A DNA stretch of 64,000 bases. Origin: an uncultured Phascolarctobacterium sp. GTDB taxonomy: Bacteria; Bacillota; Negativicutes; Acidaminococcales; Acidaminococcaceae. Every line of letters starts with the position of its first letter. Position 1 is the stretch's first letter. The position numbers and the translations under genes were made by a program. The notes under the pieces were generated by a model. The model saw only the letters and a program-made list of their open reading frames with translations. It was not told where the DNA came from and made no database searches. This document shows, piece by piece, positions 3,613-60,088 of this stretch. The stretch spans positions 1-64,000 of the forward strand of contig CASFZG010000016.1 in assembly GCA_949299135.1 (NCBI GenBank), read 5' to 3'.

Positions 3613-3626
3613 AAGGTTCCTCCTCA

Positions 3627-3652
3627 TGCAAAAAGCGCCCTTGCGGACGCTT
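3627..3652 (-). terminator. Terminator at the end of metNIQ
   Basis: On the minus strand AAGCGTCC-GCAA-GGGCGCTT (plus 3633-3652) forms an 8-bp stem with a GCAA tetraloop followed by TTTT. It separates metQ from the beta-lactamase gene. Confidence 0.7.
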
Positions 3653-3666
3653 CAGCGTTATAATTT

Positions 3667-4491
3667 TTATTTCCAGCCGATGGTAACGGCTCCTTTAAAG
3701 TGTTCGTCGATAAATTTCTGCACATCATCGGACTGGTAGATTTTTTGCAGCTGTTTAATGCGCGGGTCAGCGGCGTGCTCTTTTTTGGTAACAAAAATGT
3801 TGATGTACGGGGAAGCCGCGCCTTCAACCATCAGGCTGTCCTTAACGGGGTTCAGCCCTGCGGGCAGCGCATAGTTGGCGTTAATAACGGCTACGGTTAC
3901 GTCCGGCAGGCTGCGGGGGATGGTGGCAGCGTCCAGCTCAAGGAATTTGTAGCCGTGCGGGTTGCCGGTAATATCTGCCACGGAAGTGGTAACATCGGTA
4001 ATGTCCTTAACTTCAATCAGCTTCTGTTCAGCCAGCAGCAAAAGCGCCCTGCCGCCGTTGGAGGGGTCGTTCGGGATGCCGATGGTAGCGCCGTCGGGGA
4101 TAGCTTCGCCTTTTTTGATTTTATCGCTGTAAACAGCCATCGGGAAGTTTACGGTTTTAAAAACTTCGACCAAATCAAATTTGGGTTCTTTCTCTAAAGT
4201 AGCGTCAAGATAGGGTTTGTGCTGCATGCAGTTGGCAAAAATTTCGCCCTGGTACAGCGCGATGTTGGGGGTTACAAAATCGTTGAACTCCACAACTTCA
4301 ACATTCAGCCCTTCTTTGGCGGCAAGGCGTTTAACCTCGTCCATAATTTCGGCGTGCGGGCCTGCGGTTACGCCAACCCTTACCGGTTCACCGGCAGCGG
4401 GTGCCTGTTTTTCATCGCCGCCGCAGCCAAAAACGCCCAGCGCTAAAGTGCCGATGGCAAAAGCCGCTAAAATTCTTTTTAATCTGGTCAT
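3667..4491 (-). CDS. metQ: Methionine ABC transporter substrate-binding lipoprotein
   Basis: 274 residues of the NlpA/MetQ family. The signal peptide ends in a lipobox (LGVFGC, lipidated Cys23), so the protein is membrane-anchored and faces the periplasm. The core carries NlpA hallmarks such as FNDFVTPN, MQHKPYLD and IGIPNDPSNGGRALLLL. It binds D/L-methionine or a related compound and delivers it to MetI. GAGGAGGT precedes the ATG at 4491, 29 bases after metI. The SAM-I riboswitch upstream of metN supports methionine as substrate. Confidence 0.92.
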   Translation of the reverse strand: MTRLKRILAAFAIGTLALGVFGCGGDEKQAPAAGEPVRVGVTAGPHAEIMDEVKRLAAKEGLNVEVVEFNDFVTPNIALYQGEIFANCMQHKPYLDATLEKEPKFDLVEVFKTVNFPMAVYSDKIKKGEAIPDGATIGIPNDPSNGGRALLLLAEQKLIEVKDITDVTTSVADITGNPHGYKFLELDAATIPRSLPDVTVAVINANYALPAGLNPVKDSLMVEGAASPYINIFVTKKEHAADPRIKQLQKIYQSDDVQKFIDEHFKGAVTIGWK

Positions 4492-4520
4492 AGTTTTTAC
4501 CTCCTCATCAAAACAACAAA

Positions 4521-5180
4521 TTATAATTTATTTTTGTTCAGCTTTTTGCTGAGCGTATCGCCAAGGTACTGAATAATCTGCACCATAGCAATCAAAATAA
4601 CAACGGTAACAATCATAACATCCGGCTGGAAGCGCTGATAACCGTAGCGGATGGCTAAGTCGCCAAGGCCGCCGCCGCCTAAAACGCCCGCCATGGCGGA
4701 ATAACCGATAAGCGCGATAACCGCCAGCGTAATGCCCAGTACGATGGAGTGCAGCGCTTCCGGCAGCAGCACTTTGTAAATGATTTGCAGCGGGCTTGCA
4801 CCCATGCTCTGCGCCGCTTCGATAACGCCGTGGTCAATTTCCAGCAGCGAAGATTCAATAACGCGGGCAATGAACGGCGCTGCGGAAATCGTCAGCGGCA
4901 CAATCGCCGCCGTAGTGCCGATGGAAGAACCAACCAGCACGCGCGTCAGCGGGATAATGGCTACCATTAAAATAATAAACGGGGTGGAACGGGTTGCGTT
5001 GACGATAACGCCCAGCACGGAATTAACGGCTGCGTTCGGCAGAATGTGGTTGGCGCGCGTAACCGTCAAAATAATCCCCAGCGGGATGCCGATAAGGCTG
5101 GCCAGAAGCGTGGAGGCTACAACCATATAGCTTGTTTCCCAAAAGGATTTTATTAAAAGTTCAATCATTTCATTTGACAT
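4521..5180 (-). CDS. metI: Methionine ABC transporter permease
   Basis: 219 residues from the ATG at 5180; this start has GGAGGT 8 bases upstream and removes an 11-residue charged extension of the longer open frame. Five hydrophobic segments and the EAA loop (EAAQSMGASPLQIIYKVLLPEA) mark a MetI-type inner-membrane permease that couples to the MetN ATPase. Its start overlaps the metN stop by 11 bases, indicating translational coupling in a metN-metI-metQ operon. Confidence 0.93.
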   Translation of the reverse strand: MSNEMIELLIKSFWETSYMVVASTLLASLIGIPLGIILTVTRANHILPNAAVNSVLGVIVNATRSTPFIILMVAIIPLTRVLVGSSIGTTAAIVPLTISAAPFIARVIESSLLEIDHGVIEAAQSMGASPLQIIYKVLLPEALHSIVLGITLAVIALIGYSAMAGVLGGGGLGDLAIRYGYQRFQPDVMIVTVVILIAMVQIIQYLGDTLSKKLNKNKL

Positions 5181-6207
5181 AACCAAGCACCTCCACTTGC
5201 AGGTTCTGCGCACGCAGATATGCTTCCGCGTTTTCCAGCGCGTCTCCGCTGCCTTCGATAACGATTAACAGATTGCCGTAAATGCGGTCCTTCAACTGGT
5301 CCAGATTGCCGGAGAGGATGTTGGCGTCGACGCCGCACTCGCGGATCATGCCGGATACAACCGGTTTATCGGCGTTGCCGCCGAAGAAGGAAAGGCGCAC
5401 CACCATGCTGCTGCCTTCAAAATATTTATCCTGCACGGGCGTATCCTTAAAGGCTTCCGGCAGCTCCAGTTTGTTGACGCTTTTTACAAAGTCCTTCGTC
5501 GTGGGGCTCTGCGGATTGGTGAAGACTTCAACCATGTTGCCTTCCTCAATAATGCTGCCTTCTTCAATAACGGCCACGCGGTCGCAGATTTCCTTAACAA
5601 CTTCCATCTGGTGCGTAATCATTACTATGGTAAGGTTTAAACGCTGGTTGATGTCGCGCAGCAGGTTCAAAATGGATTTTGTGGTCTGCGGGTCAAGAGC
5701 GCTGGTAGCTTCGTCGCACAGCAGCACCTTCGGGTTGCTGGCAAGCGCGCGGGCGATGCCGACACGCTGCTTTTGCCCGCCGGAAAGCTGGCTGGGGTAA
5801 TGGTCGGCGCGTTCACGCAGCTGTACCAAGTCTAAAAGCGGTTCTACGCGTTTTCTGATTTCGTCTTTAGATAAGCCTTGAATTTCCAGCGGGAAGGCGA
5901 TGTTGTCATAAACGGTGCGGCTGGCCAGCAGATTAAAATGCTGGAAAATCATGCCGATGTTCTGGCGTGCCTTGCGCAGCTGGGTTTCCGTCATGGCGGT
6001 CAGCTCCTCGCCGTCAACAAAAACCTGACCGGCAGTGGGCTGCTCCAGCATGTTGATGCAGCGGATTAAAGTCGATTTACCGGCGCCGGAAAGGCCGATG
6101 ATGCCGAAAATTTCGCCCTGCTCAATCGTTAGGCTCGTCCGCTTTAAGGCGTGGATATCGCCCGAGGCGGTGTGGTAAGTTTTTTCTACATTGCGTAATT
6201 CAATCAT
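5170..6207 (-). CDS. metN: Methionine ABC transporter ATPase
   Basis: 345 residues from the ATG at 6207 (AGAGGAA upstream); the open frame extends further 5' but that part runs through the riboswitch terminator. The ABC domain shows Walker A GLSGAGKST, signature LSGGQKQR, Walker B VLLCDEATSALD and the H-loop ITHQM. The C-terminal ~100 residues form the NIL (ACT-like) domain that binds methionine and causes trans-inhibition in known MetN proteins. First gene of the riboswitch-controlled operon. Confidence 0.94.
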   Translation of the reverse strand: MIELRNVEKTYHTASGDIHALKRTSLTIEQGEIFGIIGLSGAGKSTLIRCINMLEQPTAGQVFVDGEELTAMTETQLRKARQNIGMIFQHFNLLASRTVYDNIAFPLEIQGLSKDEIRKRVEPLLDLVQLRERADHYPSQLSGGQKQRVGIARALASNPKVLLCDEATSALDPQTTKSILNLLRDINQRLNLTIVMITHQMEVVKEICDRVAVIEEGSIIEEGNMVEVFTNPQSPTTKDFVKSVNKLELPEAFKDTPVQDKYFEGSSMVVRLSFFGGNADKPVVSGMIRECGVDANILSGNLDQLKDRIYGNLLIVIEGSGDALENAEAYLRAQNLQVEVLGYVK

Positions 6208-9834: not shown

Positions 9835-9868
9835 TCTTAACCTTAATAAGTTTAATACGGAAAGCTTT

Positions 9869-9899
9869 AAAAGCGGATGGCTTATGCCATCCGCTTTTT
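9869..9899 (+). terminator. Terminator of the SLH porin gene
   Basis: AAAGCGGATGGC-TTAT-GCCATCCGCTTT, a 12-bp perfect stem with a 4-base loop and a trailing T-run. Confidence 0.92.
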
Positions 9900-10001
9900 G
9901 TATATCCGCGTAAGCGGAGGGTTTAATATAAAAAGAAAAGGCTTACTGCGTAATTTGTGAAATTTTATTTAAATTTTATACGCGGCGGCGAAAATAAAAC
10001 T

Positions 10002-10030
10002 TTGCTTATGCTATCATATTTTGGTATAAT
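10002..10030 (+). promoter_or_regulatory. Promoter of the small protein gene at 10063
   Basis: TTGCTT (10002-10007), 17-base spacer, TATAAT (10025-10030), preceded by TGG as an extended -10. Confidence 0.7.
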
Positions 10031-10062
10031 AAAAATACAAAGAATGATGGGAGTTGATTTTC

Positions 10063-10257
10063 ATGGCTGACGTATTCAATACCGTTTCCGGAAATAAAAT
10101 GTTTGAATTGAGGCAGGCTGTGCAGGAACTGCGCGAGCGCCTGAAAACCGAAGAAGACCCCGATATTATTGCTGAAATCAAAAAAGAAATTATGGAAAAG
10201 GAAACCAATTACAATATCCTTGCCGAGCGTTTGAAAGTACAGAGCCGCGGCATCTGA
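10063..10257 (+). CDS. Small coiled-coil protein, unknown function
   Basis: 64 residues from the ATG at 10063 (GGGAG 9 bases upstream); a TTG at 10054 is too near the RBS. The sequence is highly charged and predicted helical throughout (heptad-like QAVQELRERLKTEEDPDIIA), with no signal peptide or membrane segment, so cytosolic. It has its own promoter and a strong terminator, indicating a genuine single-gene transcript. I do not recognise a family. Confidence 0.75.
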   Translation: MADVFNTVSGNKMFELRQAVQELRERLKTEEDPDIIAEIKKEIMEKETNYNILAERLKVQSRGI

Positions 10258-10283
10258 TTCTGTAATTTTAGTAAGCACATTTA

Positions 10284-10320
10284 AACACTTACCGTTTATT
10301 AAAAACGGTAAGTGTTTTTT
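10284..10320 (+). terminator. Terminator of the small coiled-coil protein gene
   Basis: AACACTTACCGTTT and AAAACGGTAAGTGTT form a long stem with a short A/T loop, then T7. Confidence 0.92.
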
Positions 10321-10322
10321 TA

Positions 10323-10356
10323 TTGCCAATATGCAAAAAAAGTGATAAACTATCAC
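10323..10356 (+). promoter_or_regulatory. murA promoter with overlapping palindromic operator
   Basis: TTGCCA (10323-10328), 17-base spacer, TAAACT (10346-10351). A perfect palindrome GTGATA-AAC-TATCAC (10342-10356) straddles the -10, the typical position for a repressor operator. The regulator is not identifiable from the window. Confidence 0.65.
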
Positions 10357-10420
10357 AGAAAATATTTATTTTTAGAAGTCTGCCTTTTTATAGAATGGTT
10401 AAGAACAGGAGAGTTTGCAG

Positions 10421-11686
10421 TTGGAAAGATTGATAGTTAAAGGCGGCAACCGCCTTGTCGGCAGGGTTAAGACCAGCGGCGCCAAAAACGCTGTGCTGCC
10501 GATTATAGCTGCTTCTATTTTGGGCACGTCGCCCAGCAGGCTGGATGAAATACCTGCTTTGGAGGATGTGCGCACGATTTGCGCCGTTTTGGAATGCCTC
10601 GGCATTAAGGTTGACGCTTCCGAACCGAATGCGCTGAAGGTTGACAGCACGGAAATTACTTCGTGTGAAGCGCCGTATGAACTGGTGCGTTCCATGCGTG
10701 CTTCGTTCCTTGTAATGGGACCGCTGCTGGCGCGCAAGGGTTATGCGCGTATTTCCCAGCCGGGCGGCTGCGCAATCGGCACGCGCCCGATTGATTTGCA
10801 CCTGAAGGGTTTTGAAGCGCTGGGCGTTAAAATCGAGCAGGGGCATGGTTATATTGAAGCTTCCGCGCCGGACGGCATGGTGGGCGCTAACATTTACCTT
10901 GATTTTCCGAGCGTGGGCGCTACGGAAAACATTATGATGGCGGCTGCTATGGCCAAAGGCACGACGGTGCTGGAAAACCCCGCCGAAGAACCGGAAATTG
11001 TTGACCTTGCCAACTATCTGAACCAGATGGGCGCGCGTGTGCGCGGGGCAGGCACCAATATTATTACTATCGAAGGCGTCAGCGAACTGCACGGCGTACA
11101 GCATTCCGTTATTCCGGACCGCATTGAGGCGGGCACTTATATGATTGCCGCAGCAATGACGGGCGGCGATGTGATTATCGAAAACGTACTGCCGGAACAC
11201 CAGAAACCGCTGATTGCCAAGCTGCGTGAAGCGGGCGCGCTGGTTGAAGAAGATATCGACCGCATCCATGTCGCTTCCGACGGCAAATTGAAGGCTGTCG
11301 ATATTAAAACGCTGCCGTATCCGGGCTTCCCGACCGATATGCAGGCGCAGATGATGGCCATGCTTGCTATCGCCGAAGGGCGCAGCAAAGTAACCGAAAC
11401 TGTTTTTGAAAACCGTTTTATGCACGTTGTTGAGCTGAACCGCATGGGCGCGGACATTACCACCGACGGACGCAGCGCCGTTATTACCGGGCCTGCGCAT
11501 TTAACCGGCTGCACCGTAAGGGCAACCGACCTGCGTGCCGGTGCGGCGATGATTTTAGCCGGGCTGGTAGCGGAGGGCGCAACCGAAATTTGCGATATTT
11601 ACCACATTGACCGCGGCTACGAGGAGATTGTGGCCAAGCTGAGAAATTTGGGCGCGGATATTGAGCGCGTCGGCACGAAAGATTAA
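10421..11686 (+). CDS. murA: UDP-N-acetylglucosamine 1-carboxyvinyltransferase
   Basis: 421 residues starting at TTG 10421, which has AGGAGAG 7 bases before it (another TTG at 10415 is too close to the RBS). MurA transfers enolpyruvate from PEP to UDP-GlcNAc, the first committed step of peptidoglycan synthesis. Seen: the substrate-binding GAKNAVLP (about residues 20-27) and the loop GGCAIGTRP with Cys117, the residue alkylated by fosfomycin, so the enzyme should be fosfomycin-sensitive. mreB follows after 14 bases, probably as an operon. Confidence 0.95.
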
Positions 11687-16900: not shown

Positions 16901-17659
16901 ATGGCAGAAGCGGTAATAAGTTTGCGCCAATTGAATATTACCTTCGGCACGCATACGGTGCTTGATGACATCGACCTTGATGTTTACCGCGGCGAAACGC
17001 TGGCGATACTCGGGCCTTCGGGTACGGGCAAAAGCACGGTGCTGCGCTCGATGATTGGTCTCTTAGAACCAAACGGCGGCAAGATTTACATTCAGGGCGA
17101 GGACGTGTCGGAGCTTGACGAGGACGGCTGGAACCGCCTGCGCATGAAGATGGGCATGGTTTTTCAGTATTCGGCGCTGTTCGACTTTTTAACCGTGGGC
17201 GAAAACGTAGCCTTTGGCCTGCGCCAGCACACGGATAAGGGCGAAGAAGAAATACGGCAGATTGTGGCGCAGATGCTGGAAATGGTAGGCCTGCCGGACA
17301 CGCAGGATTTATATCCGGCGGAGCTCAGCGGCGGCATGAAAAAGCGCGTGGGGCTTGCGCGTGCCATTGCCGTCAGCCCCGAGATTGTTTTGTACGATGA
17401 ACCGACGGCGGGGCTTGACCCGATTATGAGCCACAACATCAGCCGTCTGATAAAAAAGACGCAGCAGCAGCTGCACGTTACTTCCGTTCTGGTAACGCAC
17501 GACATGCAGTCGGCGTTTTACGCTGCAGACCGCGTTGCCATGTTGTACAAGGGGCGCATCGTCGCCATCGGCACGGCGGAGGAAATGCAGCAAAGCACAA
17601 ACCCGATTGTAAAAGCCTTTATCGAAGGGCGCGAGATTAAAGAGCAGGTGATAGAATGA
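16901..17659 (+). CDS. mlaF: MlaF-family lipid ABC ATPase
   Basis: 252 residues with Walker A GPSGTGKST, Q-loop FQYSALFD, signature LSGGMKKR, Walker B VLYDEPTAGLD and the H-loop VTHDM. These match MlaF, which energises lipid transport by the MlaE permease. No MlaB gene is adjacent. The stop codon overlaps the mlaD start (ATGA), a strong coupling signal. Confidence 0.93.
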   Translation: MAEAVISLRQLNITFGTHTVLDDIDLDVYRGETLAILGPSGTGKSTVLRSMIGLLEPNGGKIYIQGEDVSELDEDGWNRLRMKMGMVFQYSALFDFLTVGENVAFGLRQHTDKGEEEIRQIVAQMLEMVGLPDTQDLYPAELSGGMKKRVGLARAIAVSPEIVLYDEPTAGLDPIMSHNISRLIKKTQQQLHVTSVLVTHDMQSAFYAADRVAMLYKGRIVAIGTAEEMQQSTNPIVKAFIEGREIKEQVIE

Positions 17660-18924
17660 GTTCCAGCGAAGTTAAAGTAGGCGCGGTAACACTGGGCGGC
17701 GCTGCGATTTTGGCGGCGATGATAACCTTTTTGGGCACGTTCAGTTTTGGCAGCGACAAATACAACATTACAATAGATTATCCGCAGGTTGGCGGTTTGA
17801 TGGCAGGCAACATGGTGCGCTACGCAGGCGTGCAGGTCGGCACGGTTAAAGGGCTGACGGTCAGCGACAGCGGCATTGAGGTTGTTGCCGAAATCAACGA
17901 CAACGTGCAGATTCCGCAGGAAGCAACCTTCACCATCGGTGCGGACGGCATTCTGGGCGAGAAGTTCGTCGATATCCAGCCGCCTCCGCGTTCGGTAAGC
18001 GCCTTTTTAGAGGAGGGCGACAGGGTGAAAGGCACGCCGGGCGGCGGCTTTGACACCTTTATGAGCGCCTCGGGCGAAGTGCTGAAAAAGGTGGAGAACA
18101 TCGCCGACGCGCTGGATAATGTGTTCGGCGACCCGGAAGTGCAGCAATCGCTGCGTGAAGGCTTTTTGAACATGAAGGACATCAGCGCCAACATGAACGC
18201 CTTTACTAAAGTAATGGCGGACGTGGCGGTGGACAACCAGCAGCAAATTAACGTAATGGTTAAGCAGCTGAGCGAAATGAGCGCGCGCATGAACGAAACG
18301 GCCAGCAGCATGGAAAACATCATTGCCGAGGTCAACGAAGGGCATGCCGGGCAGAATTTTGCCGAGATAGTTGAGAACATGGCCAAAACCAGCGCCCGCA
18401 TTGAAGAAGCGAGCAAGCTGCTGGAAAATGTTGCCAGCGACCCGCAGACAGAGGAAGATTTAAAGGCAACGCTGCATAACGCGCGCGAGGCCAGCGAAAA
18501 GGCCAACCGTATGCTGGGCGTGCTGGAAACGGCTGAAATAAGCGCCGACGTTACGCACAGCGCGGAGGGCGGCGACTGGCGCAGCAACTTGGGCGTAACC
18601 CTGCGCCCGCAGGAAGACACTTTTTTTTACCTGGGCGGCTATGACCTTGGCGACAGCAACAAACTGGATTTGCAGTTCGGCAAGGAACTGGGCGCCGCCG
18701 ATGTAAGCATGGGTGCCATGCAGGGCGAGTTTGGCGTGGGGCTTGGCTACGATTTTGCCGACCGCTTCCGCCTGTACACGCAGGTGTATGATTTTGACGA
18801 CGCCAAAGTAAAGCTGGGCGGCGAACTGAAGCTGACCGACAACTTTTCGCTGCTGGGCGAGCAGACCGATTTGCGCCACGGCAACAAGAGCAATACCTAT
18901 GTTGGTGTGCGCACTTATTTTTAA
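17656..18924 (+). CDS. mlaD: MlaD-family MCE protein with C-terminal beta-barrel-like domain
   Basis: 422 residues, about twice the length of E. coli MlaD. Residues 1-30 hold a signal-anchor helix; about 38-115 is the MCE domain (VGGLMAGNMVRYAGVQVG ... GILGEKFVDIQP); about 130-305 is long alpha-helical sequence with coiled-coil character; about 310-422 alternates short amphipathic strands (FFYLGGYDL, LDLQFGKEL, FGVGLGYDF, LYTQVYDF, VKLGGELKL) and ends in F, as do outer-membrane barrels. A MlaD of this kind that bridges both membranes has been described in Veillonella parvula, where MlaA, MlaB and MlaC are absent; none of those genes is seen here either. Likely a trans-envelope phospholipid conduit. 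Confidence 0.9.
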   Translation: MSSSEVKVGAVTLGGAAILAAMITFLGTFSFGSDKYNITIDYPQVGGLMAGNMVRYAGVQVGTVKGLTVSDSGIEVVAEINDNVQIPQEATFTIGADGILGEKFVDIQPPPRSVSAFLEEGDRVKGTPGGGFDTFMSASGEVLKKVENIADALDNVFGDPEVQQSLREGFLNMKDISANMNAFTKVMADVAVDNQQQINVMVKQLSEMSARMNETASSMENIIAEVNEGHAGQNFAEIVENMAKTSARIEEASKLLENVASDPQTEEDLKATLHNAREASEKANRMLGVLETAEISADVTHSAEGGDWRSNLGVTLRPQEDTFFYLGGYDLGDSNKLDLQFGKELGAADVSMGAMQGEFGVGLGYDFADRFRLYTQVYDFDDAKVKLGGELKLTDNFSLLGEQTDLRHGNKSNTYVGVRTYF

Positions 18925-23600: not shown

Positions 23601-24926
23601 CCGCGATGAACATCAGGGTTAACCTTGATAACGCGCGCCTTGGGCTCCTGCACCTCTTAACGCCGATGGTTGAGTGGGGCGTGGGCGAAACGCTCGGCTC
23701 GGTAACGCTGTCCGGCACGCTGGAAGAACCGCTGGTTTACGGCGAAGTGCTGATGCACGGCGGCTCGCTGAAATTGCGCGACGCTTATACAATTTTTGAC
23801 AATATCAATCTGGACGTGGCGTTTACCGGCAACGAAATCGCGCTCAGGGAATTTTCCATGCAGATGGGCAAGGGCACGGTAACGGCTTCCGGCAACTACG
23901 CACTGCGTGCGGATGAAGATAAAACCTACGTTATTAATACCACGTTTAAGGACGCGGAATTTGCTTCCGAAATCTTTAGCGGACGCATCAACGGCATGGC
24001 AGGCATCAGCCCGCAGCGCTACTTTATGCGTACCAATACGGAAGCGGGCAACCGCCTTGGCGGCGTTGGTTACCGCCCGTTCATTCAGGCGGATATCCAG
24101 CTGGACGATGTGCTGGTCAACATGCCGACGATACCGGAACTTTCCGAAGGCAGCAGCAATTACGGGTTGGATGTTAAGGTAACGCTGGGACCGAAAATCC
24201 ACCTGTATAACAAATATTTGTATGATTTGTGGCTGTCCGGAGGATTGCATGTAACGGGCAGTACAGTGTATACTAATATAGACGGCAACGTGAAGGCAGA
24301 CAGGGGCACCATTACCTATCTGCGCACGCCGTTTGAAATCCACAATGCTTCCGTGGCGTGGCCGGTGCCGGGCGACATTCTGCCGACGGTTAACCTTGAC
24401 GCAACAGCACAGTTCAGACGTTATGACATTTTCCTGCGCGTAACAGGCCCGCTGGAGCAGATGAACATGGTACTGCGCAGCGATCCGTCACTGACTAAGG
24501 ACCAGATTATCAAGATGCTGACTTTGCAGCGCGAAGTAACCGGCACGGACCAGGGCGTAACGCAGGATGACTTCCAGAACCTGATGACGGTCGGGCTGGA
24601 AATGACGGTGCTGGGCGACGTTGAAGAAATCTTCAAGCAGACGCTGGGGCTGAATGAATTTATGATTTATTCCGGGCACGGGGCACAGCCTTGTGCAGGA
24701 CAGCGGCGAGTTGACCGAGGACGAGAAAGACCAGTACAACCTGCTCGTCAGCAAGTACCTGACGGACCATTTGCTGGTTGGCTATACCGTCAGCGACGAC
24801 AGCGAACGCCAGAGCATTTTTGCGTCGTATGATATCTCGCGCCATATGAGTATCAACTACGAGCGCAACAAGGATTACGACACGACGGACGAATGGTACG
24901 GCGTGGAATACAAAGTCACATTTTAA
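20648..24926 (+). CDS. tamB: TamB-family (DUF490) inter-membrane protein, one-base frameshift near the 3' end
   Basis: About 1425 residues if the reading frame is restored. An N-terminal signal-anchor (residues 4-22) is followed by more than 1000 residues of repeated short beta-strands (AsmA/TamB-like groove) and a C-terminal DUF490 domain. After LNEFMIYSGHG the frame given by the start codon turns into an Arg/Gln-rich nonsense tail ending at 24832. The adjacent frame instead gives HSLVQDSGELTEDEKDQYNL and on to YGVEYKVTF at 24926, the expected TamB terminus. The shift is one extra base at or near the GGGG run 24680-24683. TamB-like proteins form a lipid slide between the membranes. No tamA is nearby; BamA is 1.3 kb downstream. 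Confidence 0.88.
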
Positions 24927-24966: not shown

Positions 24967-25605
24967 ATGCCCATGCTGAAGGAATATCTGGCAGAGCTGC
25001 AGAAAACGCCGCTGCTTACCCGCGAGGAAGAAACGGCGCTGTGGCAGCGTTATGCCGGAGGCGACCGTGAGGCGTATAACAAGTTAATGACATCCTATCA
25101 GCCGCTGGTGTTTAAAATTGCGGCCGGGTTTAAACTGCCCGAGCCGCAGTTAATGGAACTGGTGCAGGAGGGAATGCTGGGGCTGCTGGAAGCGGCAGAG
25201 CGCTACGATTATAAACGCGGCGTGGCTTTCAGCGTGTTTGCCATGCACCGTATCCGCGGCAGAATGCTGGACTTTTTGCAGCAGGACGAGAGCAGAAACT
25301 TTTCGCTGGACGATACCAACGCTGCGGGTGTTGCCTGGGCAGAGGTGCTGGCTTCTTCCGGACGCACGCCTTTTGAGGAAGCGGAGTTAAGCATGTTGAC
25401 CGACCGCGTGGCGCAGGCGTTGCACCGCCTGCCGGAAAAAGAGCAGCAGGTGCTGACGGGTATTTACCTTGAAGACCGCACCGCTGCCGATATGGCGGAC
25501 AGCATTCACGTCAGCCAGGGGCATATCTACCGTCTGCAAAAACGCGGTGTTAAACGTATCCGCGGTATGCTTTCGCATTTTATTGCGGATTTAAAAAGAA
25601 GCTAA
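24967..25605 (+). CDS. Sigma-70 family RNA polymerase sigma factor
   Basis: 212 residues. A short region-1.2-like start (LKEYLAELQKTPLLTREEE), region 2 (residues about 40-105, with LVQEGMLGLLEAAERYD and a -10-reading helix), and region 4 (about 140-205; HTH AADMADSIHVSQGHIYRLQKRGVKR). There is little room for region 3, so it lies between group 3 and ECF types. AGGAAGGG precedes the ATG at 24967. It sits 41 bases after tamB and is followed by a single-span membrane protein gene and bamA, suggesting a role in envelope gene control; its regulon is unknown. Confidence 0.88.
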   Translation: MPMLKEYLAELQKTPLLTREEETALWQRYAGGDREAYNKLMTSYQPLVFKIAAGFKLPEPQLMELVQEGMLGLLEAAERYDYKRGVAFSVFAMHRIRGRMLDFLQQDESRNFSLDDTNAAGVAWAEVLASSGRTPFEEAELSMLTDRVAQALHRLPEKEQQVLTGIYLEDRTAADMADSIHVSQGHIYRLQKRGVKRIRGMLSHFIADLKRS

Positions 25606-25756
25606 CGCAAGAAAAACAGTGCTGTTGTACTTTTTTCGCAGGATTATTGCATTTATTGTTGAAATATGGGAAAATATAATAAATTTTGCCATGATAAAAT
25701 ATCCTGAAAAAACGGATTATATATTCAATTAGTCTGTGCAGGAAGGAGTTTTGGCG

Positions 25757-26233
25757 GTGGCAAAAGACATTTACGATAATATAGACGATGTGAAATGCAG
25801 CCTGGACAATGCCCAGCAGAGCTTCCGCAAAAACAACGGCTTGCGGGGCGAGCTTGATTTGATGCTGGCGGAGGCGTCCATCCGCTATTTGCGCGAAAAG
25901 CGCGGGCTTGCAAGCGTATGGAACAGGCAGAAGCTGGCGGCCATACTGGCAGTGCTTCTGGTGCTGGCAGGTTACGGCGGCTGGTTATATGCAGGCGTTT
26001 CGCACAACGAGGCGGTAAACATCCCGGCGGCAGCCGCGGTTGCGCCCGCACAAAAGCAAGCGGCAGCAGTACCGCAGCAAACAGTTACTACCCAACCGGA
26101 ACCGGAAATAAAACAGGCGGCGCCGGCTGAGCAAAATATAAACAGCAATACCAGTTATAAAAATTATTTAGCTGAAGAAGATATGCAGCAGCTTGTCAGA
26201 ACTGGCAGGCAGGTTCTGCAGGATGCTGATTAA
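25757..26233 (+). CDS. Single-span membrane protein of unknown function between sigma factor and bamA
   Basis: 158 residues from the GTG at 25757 (GAAGGAG 8 bases upstream; a TTG at 25751 is too close). N-terminal 50 residues are charged and helical (cytoplasmic), one membrane helix spans about 55-75 (LAAILAVLLVLAGYGGWLY), and the rest is Ala/Pro/Gln-rich and presumably periplasmic, ending in a short helix (EEDMQQLVRTGRQVLQ). No family is recognised. The layout and position next to a sigma factor would fit an anti-sigma or sensor role, but no ZAS motif or RsgI/RsiW homology is seen. 15 bases separate it from bamA. Confidence 0.7.
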   Translation: MAKDIYDNIDDVKCSLDNAQQSFRKNNGLRGELDLMLAEASIRYLREKRGLASVWNRQKLAAILAVLLVLAGYGGWLYAGVSHNEAVNIPAAAAVAPAQKQAAAVPQQTVTTQPEPEIKQAAPAEQNINSNTSYKNYLAEEDMQQLVRTGRQVLQDAD

Positions 26234-26248: not shown

Positions 26249-28645
26249 ATGAACAAGAGAAAGTATGCACAGTTGTCCTTAAGCCTGGCGGCCATGCTGA
26301 TGGCAGTGCCGGTATGGGCGGCGGAACAGAACAATTCCGCAGCTGACGTTGTTGCCAACCAGACGATGACCATCGGCGGCAAGGAACAGATTGTCAGCCA
26401 GAAAGCGCTGGAACAGATGCGCGAAGCTCAGGAAAAAGAAGGCAAATCCTTCCCGAAAAAGGGCAAAGACGGCAAGTATACTTATTATATGCACAATAAA
26501 CCGTCCGAGGATATCTCCGACCCCAATTACAAAAGCGGCGGCAAATCCGGCAGCGGCAGGATTGTGGAAATTGTCCCCGGCAAGGGCGTTGTGCGTGAAG
26601 GCGGCAGCGGTGTGGAAGCACCGGACGCAGTACAGCAGAAAACTGCTGAAACGCAGGACAGCGGCGCTGCACAGGTGCAGGATGAAGCCGTTGTTACCGA
26701 TGAAGGCGACGGCCAGATTATCGCAGGGGAAGATGGCGAACTGAAAGAGCCCATGGTGCGCGAAGCCGACGGCAGCCTGCGCCCGATGACGATGGAAGAA
26801 CGCCAGAAATGGGAAGCTGAAGTAGAACAGCAGCGTACGGCACAGGAAGCTGTGCAGCAGAACGCGCAGACCAACGCTGTTTCGCAGGAGCCGGTATTGA
26901 ACATGCCGATTGCCCAGCAGCAGCGCGCCAGCGAACCGGCTGCCCCGTATATCGGCCAGCTGATTACCAAAATCAGCGTTACCGGCAACAAAGTAACCAA
27001 AGCCGAAGACATTGAAGCGGTTATTACCACCAAACCGGGCATGGAACTGACGCAGGAAGGCCTTGCCAAAGACCTGCATGCCATTTACGGCCTGGGCTGG
27101 TATTATGATTTGCAGCCGGAATTCATCAAAGTTCCGGAAGGCGTGCAGCTCGTTTACCATGTGCTGGAAAACCCTGTTTATAAACAGCTGGAAGTAGAAG
27201 GCAACACCAAAATTTCCGATTCCGAAATCGAAAAAATCCTTGATTTGCCGAAAGACGAAATCATCAATATTAAAGACGTTAATATAAAAGTGCAGCGCCT
27301 TGAAGCAGAATACAACAAGCAGGGCTATATCCTCGCGCGTGTTGCGGATATCCGCATGCTGCCTGACGGAACGCTTTTGCTTTTAGTTAACGAAGGCATT
27401 GTTGAAGACTTTAAGGTTAAAGGCAATGTAAAAACCAAAGACTATGTTATTACCCGCGAAATGAAGCTGAAAAAAGGCGAGCCGTTCAATGCCAAAGACG
27501 CACGCCGTAGCATGCAGCGCATTTATAACCTCGGTTATTTTGAAGACGTTAACATTAAGCTGAACCCGGGCCAGGAACCGAACGGTGTGGAAATTGAAAT
27601 TACCGTTGTGGAAATGAACACCGGTACTTTCGGCATCGGTGCAGGCTACAGCAATGCTGACGGCTTTATCGGCATGGTTTCCGTCGGCGACAGAAACTTC
27701 CGCGGCACGGGCGACAGCGTGAACGTACGCTGGGAGTTTGGCGGCGAAGATGAAAAGAACTACGAATTTACTTATGTAAAACCGTGGATTGACGATAAAG
27801 AAACCAAAGCAACCTTGATGCTGTACGATGTTACCAACGAATATGCCGACTACGACATCGACGCACATGAGATTGCGCGTTACGATAAAAAGCGCCGCGG
27901 CCAGGAATTAACCTTCAGCCGCAGGACGGACAACGAATTTATCAGCAACTATGTAACGCTGAAAAACCGCGACGATATTTATAAAGGCGAAGCCGATGGT
28001 TACGAAGGCGACCGCGACCAGTACTATGAAGACCAGTTTAATGGGTCTAAATATGATAAACCGTATTACCCTGCAACCGCTAAAGAGCGCCGTGATGAAA
28101 ACTTTGGCGTAACCCGCAGTATTACTTTCGGACGTGTATTCGATTCACGTGATAACATTTACGACCCACACGAAGGTAAACGTATCGGCTACAGCGTAGA
28201 ATGGGCAGGCCTTGGCGGCGATTTTGACTTTACCAAATTAACGGCTGACTGGCGTTATTATTACCGTGCCGGCGGAGAAAGCGTCTGGGCGCTGAACCTT
28301 GGCGCAGGCTGGGCTGACGGCGACATGCCTTTGAGCCAGCGCTTCTCGATGGGCGGCAGTGATACCCTGCGCGGCTACGAGGACGACCAGTTCCGCGGCA
28401 ACAGTATGTTAAAAGCTACTTTGGAATACCGCTTCCCGATTATCAAAAAAGTACAGGGCGTACTCTTTACCGATAACGGCTATGCCTGGGATAAACGCTT
28501 TGAGGACGATTTTGACCTCGGTTTGATTAAGAACAGCGTCGGTGCAGGTTTGCGCATCAACTCCCCGCTCGGCCCGGTTAAACTGGATTACGGCTGGGGC
28601 GACGACGGCGGCATGTTCCACTTCAGCTTCGGCGGCCAGTTCTGA
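26249..28645 (+). CDS. bamA: Outer-membrane protein assembly factor BamA with N-terminal extension
   Basis: 798 residues. Signal peptide 1-24 is followed by about 205 residues of low-complexity, charged sequence with no known fold. Three POTRA repeats follow (about 235-308, 309-384, 385-458; each with a VxGNxxxxxxxI pattern), instead of the five in E. coli, and then an Omp85 barrel to a C-terminal Phe (MFHFSFGGQF). The conserved barrel motif SMGGSDTLRGYEDDQFRG (VRGF/Y-type loop) is present. It inserts beta-barrel proteins into the outer membrane. RBS AGGGAGG. Skp-like chaperones are encoded just downstream. Confidence 0.93.
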   Translation: MNKRKYAQLSLSLAAMLMAVPVWAAEQNNSAADVVANQTMTIGGKEQIVSQKALEQMREAQEKEGKSFPKKGKDGKYTYYMHNKPSEDISDPNYKSGGKSGSGRIVEIVPGKGVVREGGSGVEAPDAVQQKTAETQDSGAAQVQDEAVVTDEGDGQIIAGEDGELKEPMVREADGSLRPMTMEERQKWEAEVEQQRTAQEAVQQNAQTNAVSQEPVLNMPIAQQQRASEPAAPYIGQLITKISVTGNKVTKAEDIEAVITTKPGMELTQEGLAKDLHAIYGLGWYYDLQPEFIKVPEGVQLVYHVLENPVYKQLEVEGNTKISDSEIEKILDLPKDEIINIKDVNIKVQRLEAEYNKQGYILARVADIRMLPDGTLLLLVNEGIVEDFKVKGNVKTKDYVITREMKLKKGEPFNAKDARRSMQRIYNLGYFEDVNIKLNPGQEPNGVEIEITVVEMNTGTFGIGAGYSNADGFIGMVSVGDRNFRGTGDSVNVRWEFGGEDEKNYEFTYVKPWIDDKETKATLMLYDVTNEYADYDIDAHEIARYDKKRRGQELTFSRRTDNEFISNYVTLKNRDDIYKGEADGYEGDRDQYYEDQFNGSKYDKPYYPATAKERRDENFGVTRSITFGRVFDSRDNIYDPHEGKRIGYSVEWAGLGGDFDFTKLTADWRYYYRAGGESVWALNLGAGWADGDMPLSQRFSMGGSDTLRGYEDDQFRGNSMLKATLEYRFPIIKKVQGVLFTDNGYAWDKRFEDDFDLGLIKNSVGAGLRINSPLGPVKLDYGWGDDGGMFHFSFGGQF

Positions 28646-28655: not shown

Positions 28656-29918
28656 ATGCAGTTAAGAAGTTTATTGCTGTGCTGCCTGCTTGTTGCGGCG
28701 GCTGTGCCTGCGTGGGCAGAGCCGGTGGACAGCGTGCAGGTGCGCATTACCGATAACGGCGGTACAAGCGGCGTGCTGCTCGACAGGATGTCCAGAAGCA
28801 TGCAGGTAGTGGCAGAACAGCTTTTTCTCGATAAAGACAGCGTCAACATCAATGCCGCGTGCGGCGATTACGAGCGTTTGCTGGCAGAAGTAGGCGACCG
28901 TGTGCTGACGGGCTACCGGATGGAAAGCGTCAGCGTGAGCGCGGGCAGCGTTACCGCTATTGATATGCGCGTTGCCCCGTGGAGCGCAGCAGTTGACGAT
29001 GTGTTTGTGGATTTGCAGTTTTCCGGCGTGGAGCCGGGCACGGCGGAGTTTTTGAAAGCACGCCTGCCGCAGCTGCAAAACAGAATAGAAAATATTATTA
29101 AAGGTTCTTCCGTCGATGCAAGCGACTGGGCCGGCGGCATACTGCGCCGTCTGGTGCGCAGCGAAGTGGAAGAAAAACTGCCGGAGTTCAAGGCTGCTGT
29201 CGATGTTGTCCGCGAGGATGACCGCACCGTGGTGCAGGTGGTAATTTACCCGGTAGGCCAGCTGGTGCAGAACGTGGATTATTCCATGGCTTCGGAATCG
29301 ATACCGAACCTTTTGCTGCTGGATTTAAAACAGCGCTATGCCCAAAAGGCGGACGCTTTGCGCGGGCTGCCGGTAGAATATGTCAAACGCCATAAGGCGG
29401 AGCTGGAAAACCTGCTTTTGACAGATTTGCAGAACGAAAAATCCGTAAAGCTGCACAATCTGGCGCCGGCAGTTAAGCTTGTGCCGGGCGGCACGCTGGG
29501 CGTGGAAATCAACATGGGCTCGGATAAATACAAAATCTGGTTTGAGGGTTACGGCGATATCGGCCGCGACGAGGATAATATTTCCGGGCGCGCCCATTTT
29601 GGCAAGTTCATTTCGGACCGCGATGAAATTTTCGGCGAAGTCGGCGTGACGCTGGACGATGTGGACTGGGATTTTTCCGCGGGCTACGCAAGGCACTGGG
29701 GCAAGGCAACGCTGAGCTATATGCGGCGCAGCCCCGACGGGCAGAACGTGTTCCGCGGCGAATACGATTTTACCAGCAAATGGCGTTTGCGCACCGAATA
29801 TTTTTCGGGCACGGATACCACGGAAATTGCCGTGCGGTACAGAATACACGAATTTTTAAGCGCTGAATACGTTTACTCCAACGATAAGCCCTACTTCCGC
29901 ATTGTGGGAAATTTGTAG
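28656..29918 (+). CDS. Probable outer-membrane protein, family not recognised
   Basis: 420 residues. Clear signal peptide 1-21 (LLLCCLLVAAAVPAWA). Residues about 22-250 are mixed alpha/beta and contain two POTRA-sized segments; residues about 280-420 alternate strands with aromatic girdle residues (YKIWFEGYGDI, FGEVGVTL, DFSAGYARHW, ATLSYMRR, WRLRTEYF, EIAVRYRI, LSAEYVY), consistent with an 8-10-stranded barrel. No Shine-Dalgarno is visible in the 10 bases after the bamA stop, so translation may depend on coupling to bamA. Its conserved-looking position between bamA and the Skp genes suggests an envelope assembly role. Confidence 0.72.
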   Translation: MQLRSLLLCCLLVAAAVPAWAEPVDSVQVRITDNGGTSGVLLDRMSRSMQVVAEQLFLDKDSVNINAACGDYERLLAEVGDRVLTGYRMESVSVSAGSVTAIDMRVAPWSAAVDDVFVDLQFSGVEPGTAEFLKARLPQLQNRIENIIKGSSVDASDWAGGILRRLVRSEVEEKLPEFKAAVDVVREDDRTVVQVVIYPVGQLVQNVDYSMASESIPNLLLLDLKQRYAQKADALRGLPVEYVKRHKAELENLLLTDLQNEKSVKLHNLAPAVKLVPGGTLGVEINMGSDKYKIWFEGYGDIGRDEDNISGRAHFGKFISDRDEIFGEVGVTLDDVDWDFSAGYARHWGKATLSYMRRSPDGQNVFRGEYDFTSKWRLRTEYFSGTDTTEIAVRYRIHEFLSAEYVYSNDKPYFRIVGNL

Positions 29919-29925: not shown

Positions 29926-29954
29926 TTGAAAGATAAACGCAGGGCTGATATAAT
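29926..29954 (+). promoter_or_regulatory. Promoter upstream of the Skp-like genes
   Basis: TTGAAA (29926-29931), 17-base spacer, TATAAT (29949-29954). It provides an independent start for the Skp/lpx part of the cluster. Confidence 0.75.
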
Positions 29955-29992
29955 TAAAAATATAATTAAATTTGAAAGCAGGGATATTTATT

Positions 29993-30478
29993 ATGATGCA
30001 GCAATTACGCAATCCGAAAAACGTAAAGATGATTTCTTTGTTTGTTGCCGCAATCTTTGTCCTCAGCTGCTTTGCCATTACCTTGCAGCAGGGCTCTTTT
30101 TCCGGCATTGCCTCGGCGGCTTCCTCCGAATCCGCTATCGGCGTTGTAAATTACCAGATGCTTCTTTCCCAGTCGCCTGACCTGGCCGGTGTTGAAGAAG
30201 CCATGAAACAGGAAATTGCAACCCAGCAGAAAAACTTTGACGAAAAAAGCCAGAATATGAACGATACCGAAAAGCAGCGTTATTACCAGCAGCTGCAGGA
30301 GGTAATTGCCAACAGGGAAAAAGAACTGATGGAGCCTGTGTTCCAGAAAATTGAAGCAGCCATAAAAAAAGTGGCCGATAAAAAAGGCCTGGCAGTTGTA
30401 GTAGAAAAAAATACCGTAATTTACGGTGGTCTCGATATTACTGACGAAGTGGCAAAAACCCTGCAAAGCGGAAAATAA
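29993..30478 (+). CDS. Skp/OmpH-family periplasmic chaperone (paralogue 1)
   Basis: 161 residues from ATG 29993 (CAGGGAT upstream). An N-terminal hydrophobic segment (residues about 14-32) acts as a signal peptide or anchor; the SASAASS stretch after it could be a cleavage site. The rest is the OmpH/Skp fold: VVNYQMLLSQSP, then a long coiled coil (QNFDEK...NREKELMEP) and the terminal beta strand GLAVVVEKNTVIYGGLDITDEV. Skp trimers hold unfolded outer-membrane proteins for BamA, which is encoded just upstream. Confidence 0.87.
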   Translation: MMQQLRNPKNVKMISLFVAAIFVLSCFAITLQQGSFSGIASAASSESAIGVVNYQMLLSQSPDLAGVEEAMKQEIATQQKNFDEKSQNMNDTEKQRYYQQLQEVIANREKELMEPVFQKIEAAIKKVADKKGLAVVVEKNTVIYGGLDITDEVAKTLQSGK

Positions 30479-30532: not shown

Positions 30533-31447
30533 ATGCGTTATCTGCAAATTGCATTATTGATGTTCATAGCCGTATTTTGCGTAAGCGCCTGCGGCAGTCT
30601 GCCCGGCTTGGGCGAAAAGATTGCCTATCTCAACTGGGAGGAAGCGGTTAAAAGCCATCCGCGACACGAAGCGTTAAAGCAGGGCAAGGCGGAATATGAC
30701 AAGCTTTTAGCTTACCGTGACCAGCAGGCTGACATTGCCCGTAAGCAGATTCAGGGGCTGGCGCTTTTGCAGAAGATTAAGCAGAACAGCAAAAGCAGTT
30801 ATTACGAAGCCGATTTCCGTACATCGCTGTATGCCAAGCAGGAAATAGAGCAGCACGGTTTCCGCGAAGTTTTGCAGAAAGCGGCGGCCGAAGCCGATGA
30901 AATACTGGCGGCGGAACGCGAAAGTATCGAAAAGGATTACCAGCTGCGGATGTTCAACATCCGTTTGCAGCTGGAAGCGGTGCGCATGAAGCCGGAACAG
31001 CGTCAGGCACTGCAGGAGGAGCTGCATGCTATCCGCATGGAAATGGACGGCAGGCTGGCGCAGTTAAATCAGCGCAAGGCTGAAATTATTGCCGAAAAGA
31101 CAGCGCCGGAACGTGAAGCCATGCAGCAGCGCATAGCGGCTTACGCCGATGAACTGCGCGGCGAATTGCAGGGCAGGCTGCGGGACGATATCGCCAAAGA
31201 CGATAAGGATTTGCAGCAGGGACCCGAGGCTTTCGGCAAGGTGCTGGAAGTTATAGACAAACGCCTGGATAAGATTAAAGAAGGCAATGACAAAATTGCC
31301 GGTGAAATCAGGCATGACATTGAAAGCAAAGTGGCGTACCTTGCCAAAGAGCGCGGCTACACCATTGTTTTTAATAAAGTAAAGGTTAATGTAAAGGCTG
31401 ACGATATTACCAAAGAGGTTGTATCGGAGCTTAAAAAATCAAAATAA
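30533..31447 (+). CDS. OmpH-like coiled-coil lipoprotein (Skp paralogue 2)
   Basis: 304 residues. Signal peptide with lipobox VSAC (Cys20) marks a lipoprotein. The start of the mature part (IAYLNWEEAVKSHPRHEALKQGKAEYDKL) and the end (YTIVFNKVKVNVKADDITKEVVSEL) are OmpH-like, but the long central coiled coil (residues about 55-235) is roughly double the usual Skp length. It may form an extended periplasmic chaperone or tether. RBS AAAGGAAGG. Membrane of residence not decidable. Confidence 0.8.
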   Translation: MRYLQIALLMFIAVFCVSACGSLPGLGEKIAYLNWEEAVKSHPRHEALKQGKAEYDKLLAYRDQQADIARKQIQGLALLQKIKQNSKSSYYEADFRTSLYAKQEIEQHGFREVLQKAAAEADEILAAERESIEKDYQLRMFNIRLQLEAVRMKPEQRQALQEELHAIRMEMDGRLAQLNQRKAEIIAEKTAPEREAMQQRIAAYADELRGELQGRLRDDIAKDDKDLQQGPEAFGKVLEVIDKRLDKIKEGNDKIAGEIRHDIESKVAYLAKERGYTIVFNKVKVNVKADDITKEVVSELKKSK

Positions 31448-31462: not shown

Positions 31463-31873
31463 ATGAAAAAACAAATTATTGCCGGTTTACTTGCAGCGAC
31501 TGCGTTGTTATCCTTTGGCTGCTCCGGCCGCAACGCCGAATTTGGCGTGGTTGACATGCGTGCCGTGGAAAGCGAAGCCGCAGTTGTAAAAACCGTGCAG
31601 GAAGAAGTAACCACCAAAGGCAAAGCCCTGCAGGAGGAAATGAACGCCGCATTGGAAGGCAAAACCGGTGAGGAGCGCCAGAAAGTGATGGAGGACTTTA
31701 CCTCCAGGATGAATGTTGTCCGCTCCGAAGCGCAGAATAAATTAAAAGCCAGCCTTGATACGGCTTTGAACGAAGTTGCCAAGGAAAAAGGCCTGGGCGC
31801 TGTTTTGATTAAAGATGCCGTACCGCAGGGCGGCGTTGATGTTACGCAGGACGTAATTGCCAAAATGAAATAA
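31463..31873 (+). CDS. OmpH-like lipoprotein (Skp paralogue 3)
   Basis: 136 residues. Lipobox LSFGC (Cys20). Short OmpH domain: FGVVDMRAVESEAAVVKTVQ, coiled coil, and LGAVLIKDAVPQGGVDVTQDVI. Skp-like chaperone anchored to a membrane, immediately after paralogue 2 (15 bases) and before a terminator. Confidence 0.82.
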   Translation: MKKQIIAGLLAATALLSFGCSGRNAEFGVVDMRAVESEAAVVKTVQEEVTTKGKALQEEMNAALEGKTGEERQKVMEDFTSRMNVVRSEAQNKLKASLDTALNEVAKEKGLGAVLIKDAVPQGGVDVTQDVIAKMK

Positions 31874-59608: not shown

Positions 59609-60058
59609 ATGTTGTTACCTACTATTTTTGGAGAAAACTTATTCGACGATTTTATGGACGATAATTTTGAAAGGAACTTCTTCGGCAGCAGGAACCCGCT
59701 GTATGGCAAACACAGCAAAAACCTGATGAAAACCGACGTTAAAGAAACCGATAACGGTTATGAGCTTGACATCGACCTGCCGGGCTTTAAAAAAGATGAA
59801 ATCACGGCTCATCTGGAAGATGGTTATTTGACCGTATCGGCTGCCAAAGGCGTTGATAAGGACGAAAAAGATAAAGAAGGCCGTTATATCCGCCGTGAGC
59901 GTTACAGCGGCAGCATGACGAGAAGCTTCTATGTCGGCAACGCTGTTACCGAACAGGATATCAAAGCCAAATACGAAGACGGTATTCTGAGCCTGAGCAT
60001 TCCTAAAAAAGACCCGAAAGCCGTTGAAGCTAAAAAATACATCGCCATCGAAGGCTGA
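59609..60058 (+). CDS. Small heat-shock protein (Hsp20/alpha-crystallin family)
   Basis: 149 residues. Alpha-crystallin domain about 40-135 (VKETDNGYELDIDLPGFKKDEITAHLEDGYLTVSA ... EDGILSLSIPKK, with the conserved A-x-x-x-n-G-v-L-type ending). Binds unfolding proteins without ATP. RBS GAAAGGAAG. Controlled by CIRCE, unusual for Hsp20 outside Firmicutes. Confidence 0.95.
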   Translation: MLLPTIFGENLFDDFMDDNFERNFFGSRNPLYGKHSKNLMKTDVKETDNGYELDIDLPGFKKDEITAHLEDGYLTVSAAKGVDKDEKDKEGRYIRRERYSGSMTRSFYVGNAVTEQDIKAKYEDGILSLSIPKKDPKAVEAKKYIAIEG

Positions 60059-60088
60059 TAAGTTGTAACTGAATAACCACATAATACA

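Follow-up and report, generated by a model that had tools for sequence, protein, structure and literature searches.

The question raised by this locus is what is encoded by a gene, here called ORF420, which lies between bamA and the skp-like genes in DNA of an uncultured Phascolarctobacterium sp., and in which process its product takes part. The window, meaning the whole stretch of DNA that was analysed, is 64,000 nt long. A preliminary description of it had regarded the ORF420 product as an unrecognised outer-membrane protein fixed between bamA and the Skp genes and, from its place, as a possible Bam-complex partner specific to diderm Firmicutes; it did not mention the sigma factor gene and the gene of a single-TM protein, up165, which are located on the other side of bamA. 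The locus consists of the following genes and elements:

24967..25605, plus strand: sigma-70 family factor, 212 aa (Pfam Sigma70_r2 7e-16, r4 6e-11, r1.2 4e-5; no region 3 match)
25715..25723, plus strand: GATTATATA, conserved -10-like element, candidate promoter of up165-bamA-ORF420 (motif counts)
25757..26233, plus strand: up165 (GTG start at 25757 by eye, with AGGAAGGAG at 25740-25748 before it; also open from 25736)
26249..28645, plus strand: bamA (Omp85), 798 aa (Pfam Omp85 4.6e-50, POTRA 1.9e-32; TIGR03303 284 bits, just below the cut-off of 297)
28656..29918, plus strand: ORF420, whole gene, predicted to encode three POTRA-like domains and a mini-barrel (ORF, relatives, AlphaFold2 model, Foldseek)
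29972..30478, plus strand: skp-like gene 1 (Pfam OmpH 4.6e-17)
30533..31447, plus strand: skp-like gene 2 (Pfam OmpH 0.009, below cut-off; position)
31463..31873, plus strand: skp-like gene 3 (Pfam OmpH 1.8e-9)
After the three OmpH/Skp-like genes: lpxD (identified from its position and by eye)

ORF420 is a genuine open reading frame, far beyond chance, with 420 uninterrupted codons starting 10 nt past the bamA stop (28645). It opens with a Sec-type signal peptide (MQLRSLLLCCLLVAAAVPAWA followed by EP, by eye), as had been claimed, and 45 of 53 aligned rows (the window protein plus 52 of 68 named rows of suitable length) passed a crude signal-peptide test. The lipoprotein signal peptide of the Bam lipoproteins (BamB-E) is not what was found, a lipobox being present in one row of the 53. 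The window protein matched no Pfam or NCBIfam model at E values up to 10, and searching the PDB by sequence returned matches at E 0.05 or worse, so that no sequence family in these collections fits and the protein is indeed an unrecognised one. The same description had noted the lack of a Shine-Dalgarno sequence and suggested translation together with bamA. No Shine-Dalgarno was found ahead of the ATG in the window, but an SD-like motif precedes ORF420 in 27 of 85 carrier loci; the gap between bamA and ORF420 has a median of 18 nt in these loci and is within 30 nt in 55 of them (start codons in this survey were picked by script). Translational coupling to bamA is thus plausible, but not universal. 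Just past ORF420, the window also contains a strong sigma-70-like promoter (TTGAAA-17-TATAAT, 29926-29954; 11 of 12 matches, TG preceding the second hexamer), which may allow independent transcription of skp1.

According to the AlphaFold2 model (mean pLDDT 93.4, pTM 0.79; 53 aligned sequences), ORF420 is divided into the following parts:

28656..28718, plus strand: signal peptide (sequence by eye, model, alignment test)
28731..28979, plus strand: POTRA-like domain 1, residues 26-108 (predicted b-a-a-b-b; profile similarity to domains 2 and 3)
29001..29252, plus strand: POTRA-like domain 2, residues 116-199 (AlphaFold2 model, profile similarity)
29271..29516, plus strand: POTRA-like domain 3, residues 206-287 (AlphaFold2 model, profile similarity)
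29529..29912, plus strand: predicted 10-strand C-terminal barrel, residues 292-419 (AlphaFold2; VIA-align; face alternation in 8 of 10 strands)

The order beta-alpha-alpha-beta-beta, which is that of POTRA domains, is predicted in each of the three tandem domains, and their profiles resemble one another in single comparisons (E 3e-5, 1e-5, and 5e-6; probabilities 73-86%). No Pfam POTRA match to ORF420 was found, and hhalign of its domains against BamA gave nothing (E above 0.1). The count of ten barrel strands depends on the assignment of strands 272-276 and 280-287 to the third POTRA-like domain. When the model was used as a Foldseek query, the best 50 listed PDB matches were all Omp85/two-partner proteins, with TamA first (TamA of P. 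aeruginosa, 8us1, E 4e-10, probability 1.00). Whole-chain TM-scores of these matches are low (0.14-0.25 by query length), as different domain angles would produce, so the result indicates kinship of fold rather than superposition. The loop 6 motif VRGF/Y, searched as [VIL]RG[FYW], was present in none of the 53 ORF420 rows vs all 95 BamA rows. The reading as a TamA orthologue was set aside on account of the ten predicted strands and the absence of both the VRGF-type motif and profile similarity. Taken from the model, ORF420 likely has a signal peptide followed by three POTRA-like domains in tandem and an outer-membrane mini-barrel of 10 strands, in agreement with the mixed alpha/beta part and the strand-rich, small C-terminal barrel described before. 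The protein resembles a POTRA-bearing barrel, but it is not classed here as an Omp85 and is not a canonical one. We know of no protein combining three POTRA-like domains with a 10-strand barrel, and ORF420 looks like a new protein architecture.

Whether the barrel lies in a membrane was considered from structural matches and from the faces of its strands. VIA-align, with good coverage of residues 289-420, gave a designed 10-strand TM barrel as the best match (8uzl, Z 13.7, rmsd 2.8, 128 aligned), followed by Pla and KdgM, and the top eight rows are all transmembrane barrels (Z 10.9-13.7). In the alignment, hydrophobic and polar faces alternate in eight of the ten strands and the alternation is unclear in 351-359 and 413-419, the outward-facing side being taken from this alternation and not from coordinates. 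Of the two faces, the polar one shows the higher conservation in six strands and the hydrophobic one in two; invariant residues on the polar face comprise Asp301, His314, Glu324, Arg379, Arg394, His398, and Glu404; seven of the eight invariant charged or histidine positions of the barrel are therefore on a clearly polar face, and Arg415 is in an unclear strand. This pattern suits a predicted barrel with a lipid-facing outside and a polar lumen, and in the model ORF420 shows the even strand number, hydrophobic outside, and polar inside of a small transmembrane beta-barrel.

Profile comparison of the barrel by hhalign showed likeness to the TamB C-terminus over 51 columns (E 3.9e-5, probability 70%), and 12 of 53 ORF420 members matched Pfam TamB with E values of 1 or lower (best 2.4e-4). 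The C-terminus of an MlaD-like protein of the window (17656-18924, named by eye) was also similar (E 2e-4, probability 46%), and a control comparison with OmpM gave E 0.006 and 6%; small barrels may recur in the cluster. According to the available part of PMC10665443, MlaD of V. parvula has a C-terminal ten-strand barrel and fractionates with the outer membrane. A soluble C-terminal beta-barrel of the nitrobindin or lipocalin-like kind, which would make ORF420 a periplasmic protein, could account for the VIA-align matches to nitrobindins (Z 10.4) and to the anti-sigma factor RsfG (7qh3, Z 10.1), for the two strands of unclear alternation, and for the two in which the hydrophobic face is more conserved. 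The transmembrane barrels in the top eight rows, the conservation of the polar face with its invariant charged and histidine residues, and the profile likeness to the barrel of MlaD, the V. parvula counterpart of which fractionates with the outer membrane as just cited, all speak against it. By VIA-align scores and face analysis, a soluble protein is weaker than a membrane barrel, and we consider it very improbable; structure prediction favours the outer-membrane type.

Full-length relatives of ORF420 were present in 203 of 250 Negativicutes genomes (the class draw, each genome at least 90% complete), representing 78 of 86 genera. The closest named relatives belong to an Acidaminococcaceae MAG and to Phascolarctobacterium, and matches of 28-98% identity that cover most of ORF420 were obtained in 35 of 40 related genomes (36 of 41 when its own is counted). 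Scanning the genome collection with a degenerate peptide pattern yielded 109 relatives, of which 80 were kept; their titles are of Negativicutes type or unspecific, and two are filed as Acholeplasmataceae. Pelosinus fermentans JBW45 and Selenomonas ruminantium HD4 are among the carriers. The two Acholeplasmataceae entries (L080, L083), assigned to wall-less bacteria, have the entire outer-membrane locus aboard and are probably misnamed MAGs. A draw of 119 genomes from the phylum added four carriers outside Negativicutes, from two families in different classes, and in one of these classes ORF420 was present in five of seven genomes examined, three of the five being new. Omp85 was detected in 29 of the 119 genomes and ORF420 in seven of those 29. 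At the given sensitivity, ORF420 is therefore absent from the majority of the phylum's other diderm lineages. Among the genomes searched, ORF420 is found only in diderm Bacillota, namely Negativicutes and two other class-level groups.

The computed gene order is tamB, the sigma-70 factor, up165, bamA, ORF420, and skp in most carrier loci read, and outside Negativicutes it is the same in all five loci that are long enough (L154, L155, L156, L168, and L169). The sigma factor and up165 are upstream in 71 of the 80 named carrier loci. Of the remaining nine, six begin close to the end of a contig or directly at it, and the upstream stretch of L133 is 2 kb. The last two, L130 and L132, carry up165-bamA-ORF420 with no adjacent sigma gene, a reading that holds at the level of the locus. 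As determined by script, bamA adjoins ORF420 in 72 of the 80. Of the other eight, five begin where their contig does; the ORF420 frame of L102, L115, and L116 is over-long and runs into the preceding bamA. Adjoining skp was found in 67 of the 80, and in some others the contig ends first. No skp was found downstream of bamA in the stretch examined of L085, L115, L116, L117, and L130, where ORF420 still follows bamA. Exceptions to linkage were observed in three genomes: ORF420 is away from bamA in G242 (L171), the sigma gene stands among other genes in G257 (L173), and no sigma gene occurs within 3 kb upstream of up165 in G137 (L181). Each of these genomes nevertheless retains ORF420, up165, and the sigma gene, so linkage alone does not keep the three together. 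The distribution is not a scattered, bamA-free one, and the linkage to bamA proposed earlier was confirmed; ORF420 is less fixed than had been supposed, as its presence or absence changes about a dozen times on the tree described below and it stands away from bamA in G242.

Several further features of the cluster were noted. The tamB frame of the window is broken near its 3' end (24640-24926), where the ORF stops at 24832 and the C-terminal residues are open in another frame; its relatives in L054, L055, and L057 read through, and the break in the window may be genuine or may stem from the assembly. The length of the BamA frame varies between about 570 and 860 aa among the named loci, and a long low-complexity stretch precedes the POTRA domains of BamA in the genus (window 26249-27000). 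Both genomes of a family from outside Negativicutes have bamA divided between two overlapping frames, and the point of division differs between them (L155 of G291, 9868-11539; L156 of G332, 3583-5389). At the end of the window (60000-64000), G+C falls to 0.34-0.37 vs about 0.5 elsewhere, and the ORFs at 60160-61689 and 61709-62791 are a membrane-bound O-acyltransferase-like pair, as judged by eye.

The gene at 24967-25605 encodes a sigma-70 family factor with regions 2 and 4 both above the Pfam cut-offs. ECF (group 4) factors have regions 2 and 4 only, and this sigma also matches region 1.2; its best PDB profile matches are FliA and then SigA chains, and its TIGR02937 match is to a generic model. 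In up165, a TM-like segment is present in 47 of 47 rows with an N-in charge in 46, and the layout comprises conserved cytosolic N-terminal helices, one TM segment, a disordered periplasmic tail of variable length (67-186 residues), and a conserved C-terminal helix. The AlphaFold2 model of up165 is weak (pLDDT 69, pTM 0.29), and no convincing family or anti-sigma match was found in Pfam, NCBIfam, PDB, or Foldseek. The topology of up165 is anti-sigma-like, and we infer, as somewhat more likely than not, that up165 is the anti-sigma factor.

The distribution of these two genes follows that of ORF420. In the class draw of 250 genomes, ORF420 was found in 203, up165 in 201, and an orthologue of the sigma factor (E <= 1e-40) in the same 201. 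Both exceptions coincide with a contig end, which is located 455 nt upstream of bamA in G025 (L022) and at the start of ORF420 in G260 (L158); the missing genes are assumed to lie in the assembly gap. None of the 47 genomes without ORF420 has up165 or the sigma orthologue, their best sigma-70 match reaching 77 bits vs 229-329 bits in eight positive controls. BamA is present in 46 of these 47 losers; the assembly of the remaining one, G130, may lack the locus. Among 20 loser loci that were read, none carries any of the three genes; bamA comes right after tamB in 18, and no TamB was seen in the stretch in two. Five more loser loci agree, one of them from a genome re-read, giving 24 distinct loser genomes in all. 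Since bamA lies between them, the joint absence of the three genes is not accounted for by one simple deletion; either two separate deletions or an exchange of the locus would be required. Seven loser loci (L139, L140, L146, L147, L148, L151, and L152) had no skp downstream of bamA in the stretch examined.

A BamA tree was built from 93 chosen loci, 92 rows after a duplicate was removed; G272 was scored as a carrier, and G036 (L048) was retained in spite of its long branch. On this tree, presence and absence require 14 changes, 12 of them within Negativicutes, and starred branches force 12 of the 14. The BamA tree is a stand-in for a species tree and parsimony is blind to loss versus gain; with conservation this deep, loss is the more economical interpretation. 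As many losers are congeners, the number of events is the tree count and not 47. In the phylum draw, the sigma factor occurred in eight of 119 genomes, i.e., the seven with ORF420 and G272. The latter, outside Negativicutes, has tamB-sigma-up165-bamA-skp without ORF420 (L201, 6000-9749), the sole such case seen, so the sigma-up165 pair can exist without ORF420. Among 18 diderm loci without ORF420 that were read in this draw (from 22 Omp85-positive, ORF420-negative genomes), 17 lack the pair and one, that of G272, has it. Among ORF420 genomes whose locus can be read, none was seen without both sigma and up165. This co-inheritance, with about a dozen joint changes, makes a functional linkage of ORF420, sigma, and up165 very likely.

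A promoter-like element accompanies the sigma factor as well. Its position in the window is 25715-25723, some 34 nt ahead of the probable up165 start at 25757. The 9-mer GATTATATA, with one mismatch allowed, was found in 29 of 51 non-redundant sigma-up165 spacers vs 3.5 expected from dinucleotide shuffles. The pattern GA[TC]T[AG]TA[AT] precedes up165 in 36 of 64 carrier regions vs 3.8 expected from mononucleotide shuffles, where 64 of 88 carrier regions remained after near-copies were removed. Before bamA it was present in 2 of 68 carriers and in 3 of 37 losers (2.2 expected; all 37 loser regions were used, 17 of them from outside Negativicutes), and elsewhere it preceded skp1 in 2 of 54, lpxD in 1 of 56, and the sigma gene in 4 of 68. 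No firm -35 box was found before up165, a loose bipartite pattern occurring in 8 of 64 regions. By the position of this -10-like element, we infer that it is read by the sigma factor of the locus.

The reading we favour, at somewhat below an even chance, is that ORF420 is the outer-membrane member of a three-gene module for envelope signalling or control of the bam operon, together with the sigma factor and the anti-sigma-like up165. ORF420 might instead be a mini-Omp85-like assembly factor that aids BamA or TamB in place of the BamB-E lipoproteins, with sigma and up165 just controlling the operon. POTRA domains are the usual docking modules of Omp85 machines, and the short distance to bamA, the Omp85 and two-partner proteins filling the best 50 listed Foldseek matches, and the profile likeness of the barrel to the TamB C-terminus would all suit such a factor. 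Diderm Firmicutes have BamA but no BamB-E, and replacement of the missing partners by unrelated proteins is posed as a question in the available part of PMC10665443. However, genomes that lost ORF420 nearly always keep BamA, and TamB remains beside bamA in 18 of the 20 loser loci; ORF420 follows sigma and up165 and not BamA, and the VRGF-type motif is absent. Such a factor is therefore unlikely in our view, and the idea of a constitutive Bam subunit is also set back by the persistence of BamA. Since ORF420 tracks sigma and up165 while BamA stays, a regulatory or signalling role fits better than that of a constitutive Bam subunit, and ORF420 may still touch BamA. For the Bam-complex partner suggested at the outset, the restriction to diderm bacteria of this phylum stood, while no sign of a partnership in the BamA complex was seen.

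ORF420 was not found without the pair in readable loci and the pair occurs once without ORF420, so both a sensor added to the pair and a target of the pair fit. As a target, ORF420 would be the output of the sigma factor, i.e., a stress-induced structural or lipid-handling outer-membrane protein, useless and lost once sigma was lost. The distribution in G272 and in the readable ORF420 loci is as expected of a dependent target, and the similar 10-strand barrel at the end of MlaD belongs to a lipid transporter (PMC10665443, available part). A mere target would be expected to survive at times under another promoter, and no such case was seen in either the class or the phylum draw, so we regard a pure output as improbable. 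Within the favoured three-gene module, ORF420 could tentatively be placed as the sensing arm.

In such a module, the conserved cytosolic N-terminus of up165 would tether the sigma factor at the inner membrane, and its disordered tail and conserved C-terminal helix would extend into the periplasm. The POTRA-like domains of ORF420 would lend themselves to docking of the up165 tail or of BamA. Through these domains, and perhaps beside BamA, ORF420 would modulate up165 according to the state of outer-membrane assembly, and the released sigma would act on the GATTATATA promoter to give more up165-bamA-ORF420. A more far-reaching version, possible but rather doubtful, is a trans-envelope surveillance circuit that is ancient in diderm Bacillota and has no kinship with sigmaE/RseA or FecIRA. 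In this circuit, a POTRA mini-barrel would keep watch on the outer membrane or on BamA and signal via a tethered single-TM anti-sigma factor to a dedicated sigma factor controlling the bam operon, and lineages such as Veillonella would have discarded all of it.

Joint presence and absence with a sigma factor and a membrane partner suggests a built-in outer-membrane alarm system, and a dedicated sigma factor built into the bam locus would supply an envelope-stress circuit whose promoter, partner, and sensor can be put to the test, for which natural losers are ready-made comparisons. V. parvula appears to be such a loser, as its TamB, BamA, and three Skp genes are numbered consecutively in the available text of PMC5491611. 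Papers on the cluster, in their available parts, treat BamA, TamB, Skp, the single Omp85, and the missing partners (PMC5491611, PMC5007114, PMC10665443); the available part of Antunes 2016 (PMC5007114) refers to hypothetical proteins in the cluster, and the three named are other proteins. In searches of open-access PMC papers, none of the titles or abstract openings listed pointed to ORF420, up165, or the locus sigma. The idea of a joint BAM/TAM machine rests partly on a single Omp85 per genome (PMC5491611, available part), an argument complicated by a POTRA-bearing mini-barrel beside bamA in most Negativicutes. A further Omp85-like ORF was observed in the Phascolarctobacterium genome (G000:C5:84498-85310, 564 aa frame; PF01103 7e-10, BamA match 6e-7), so BamA is not the sole Omp85 relative there.

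Compared with known systems, ORF420 shares a signal peptide, predicted tandem POTRA-like domains, and a predicted C-terminal barrel with the TamA/Omp85 superfamily (TamA 8us1, BamA, FhaC, Toc75), and TamA also has three POTRA domains. The Omp85 barrel has 16 strands, and ORF420 differs in its predicted ten strands, the lack of the VRGF-type motif, and the lack of profile similarity to BamA. Its predicted small barrel of ten antiparallel strands resembles the C-terminus of V. parvula MlaD as given in the available part of PMC10665443, while MlaD has an inner-membrane anchor, an MCE domain, and a long helix where ORF420 has a signal peptide and POTRA-like domains. For the module as a whole, two signalling systems are comparable. 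In E. coli, bamA, skp, and lpxD are members of the sigmaE regulon. Like sigmaE-RseA (PMC3944529, available part), the locus encodes an alternative sigma factor and a single-pass inner-membrane protein with a periplasmic part; unlike it, no homology was seen, the sigma factor has regions 1.2, 2, and 4 with FliA as its nearest PDB profile, up165 matches no RseA model among the families searched, and the module encodes a putative outer-membrane partner. The locus also resembles FecI-FecR-FecA, in which a sigma factor, a single-TM regulator, and an outer-membrane protein are encoded together, as are here sigma, a single-TM protein, and a predicted outer-membrane protein. FecA-type transducers have a 22-strand barrel with a plug and a signalling domain, whereas ORF420, with its 10-strand barrel and no Pfam match, is no TonB-dependent receptor. 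The module is probably a new variant of a known signalling type.
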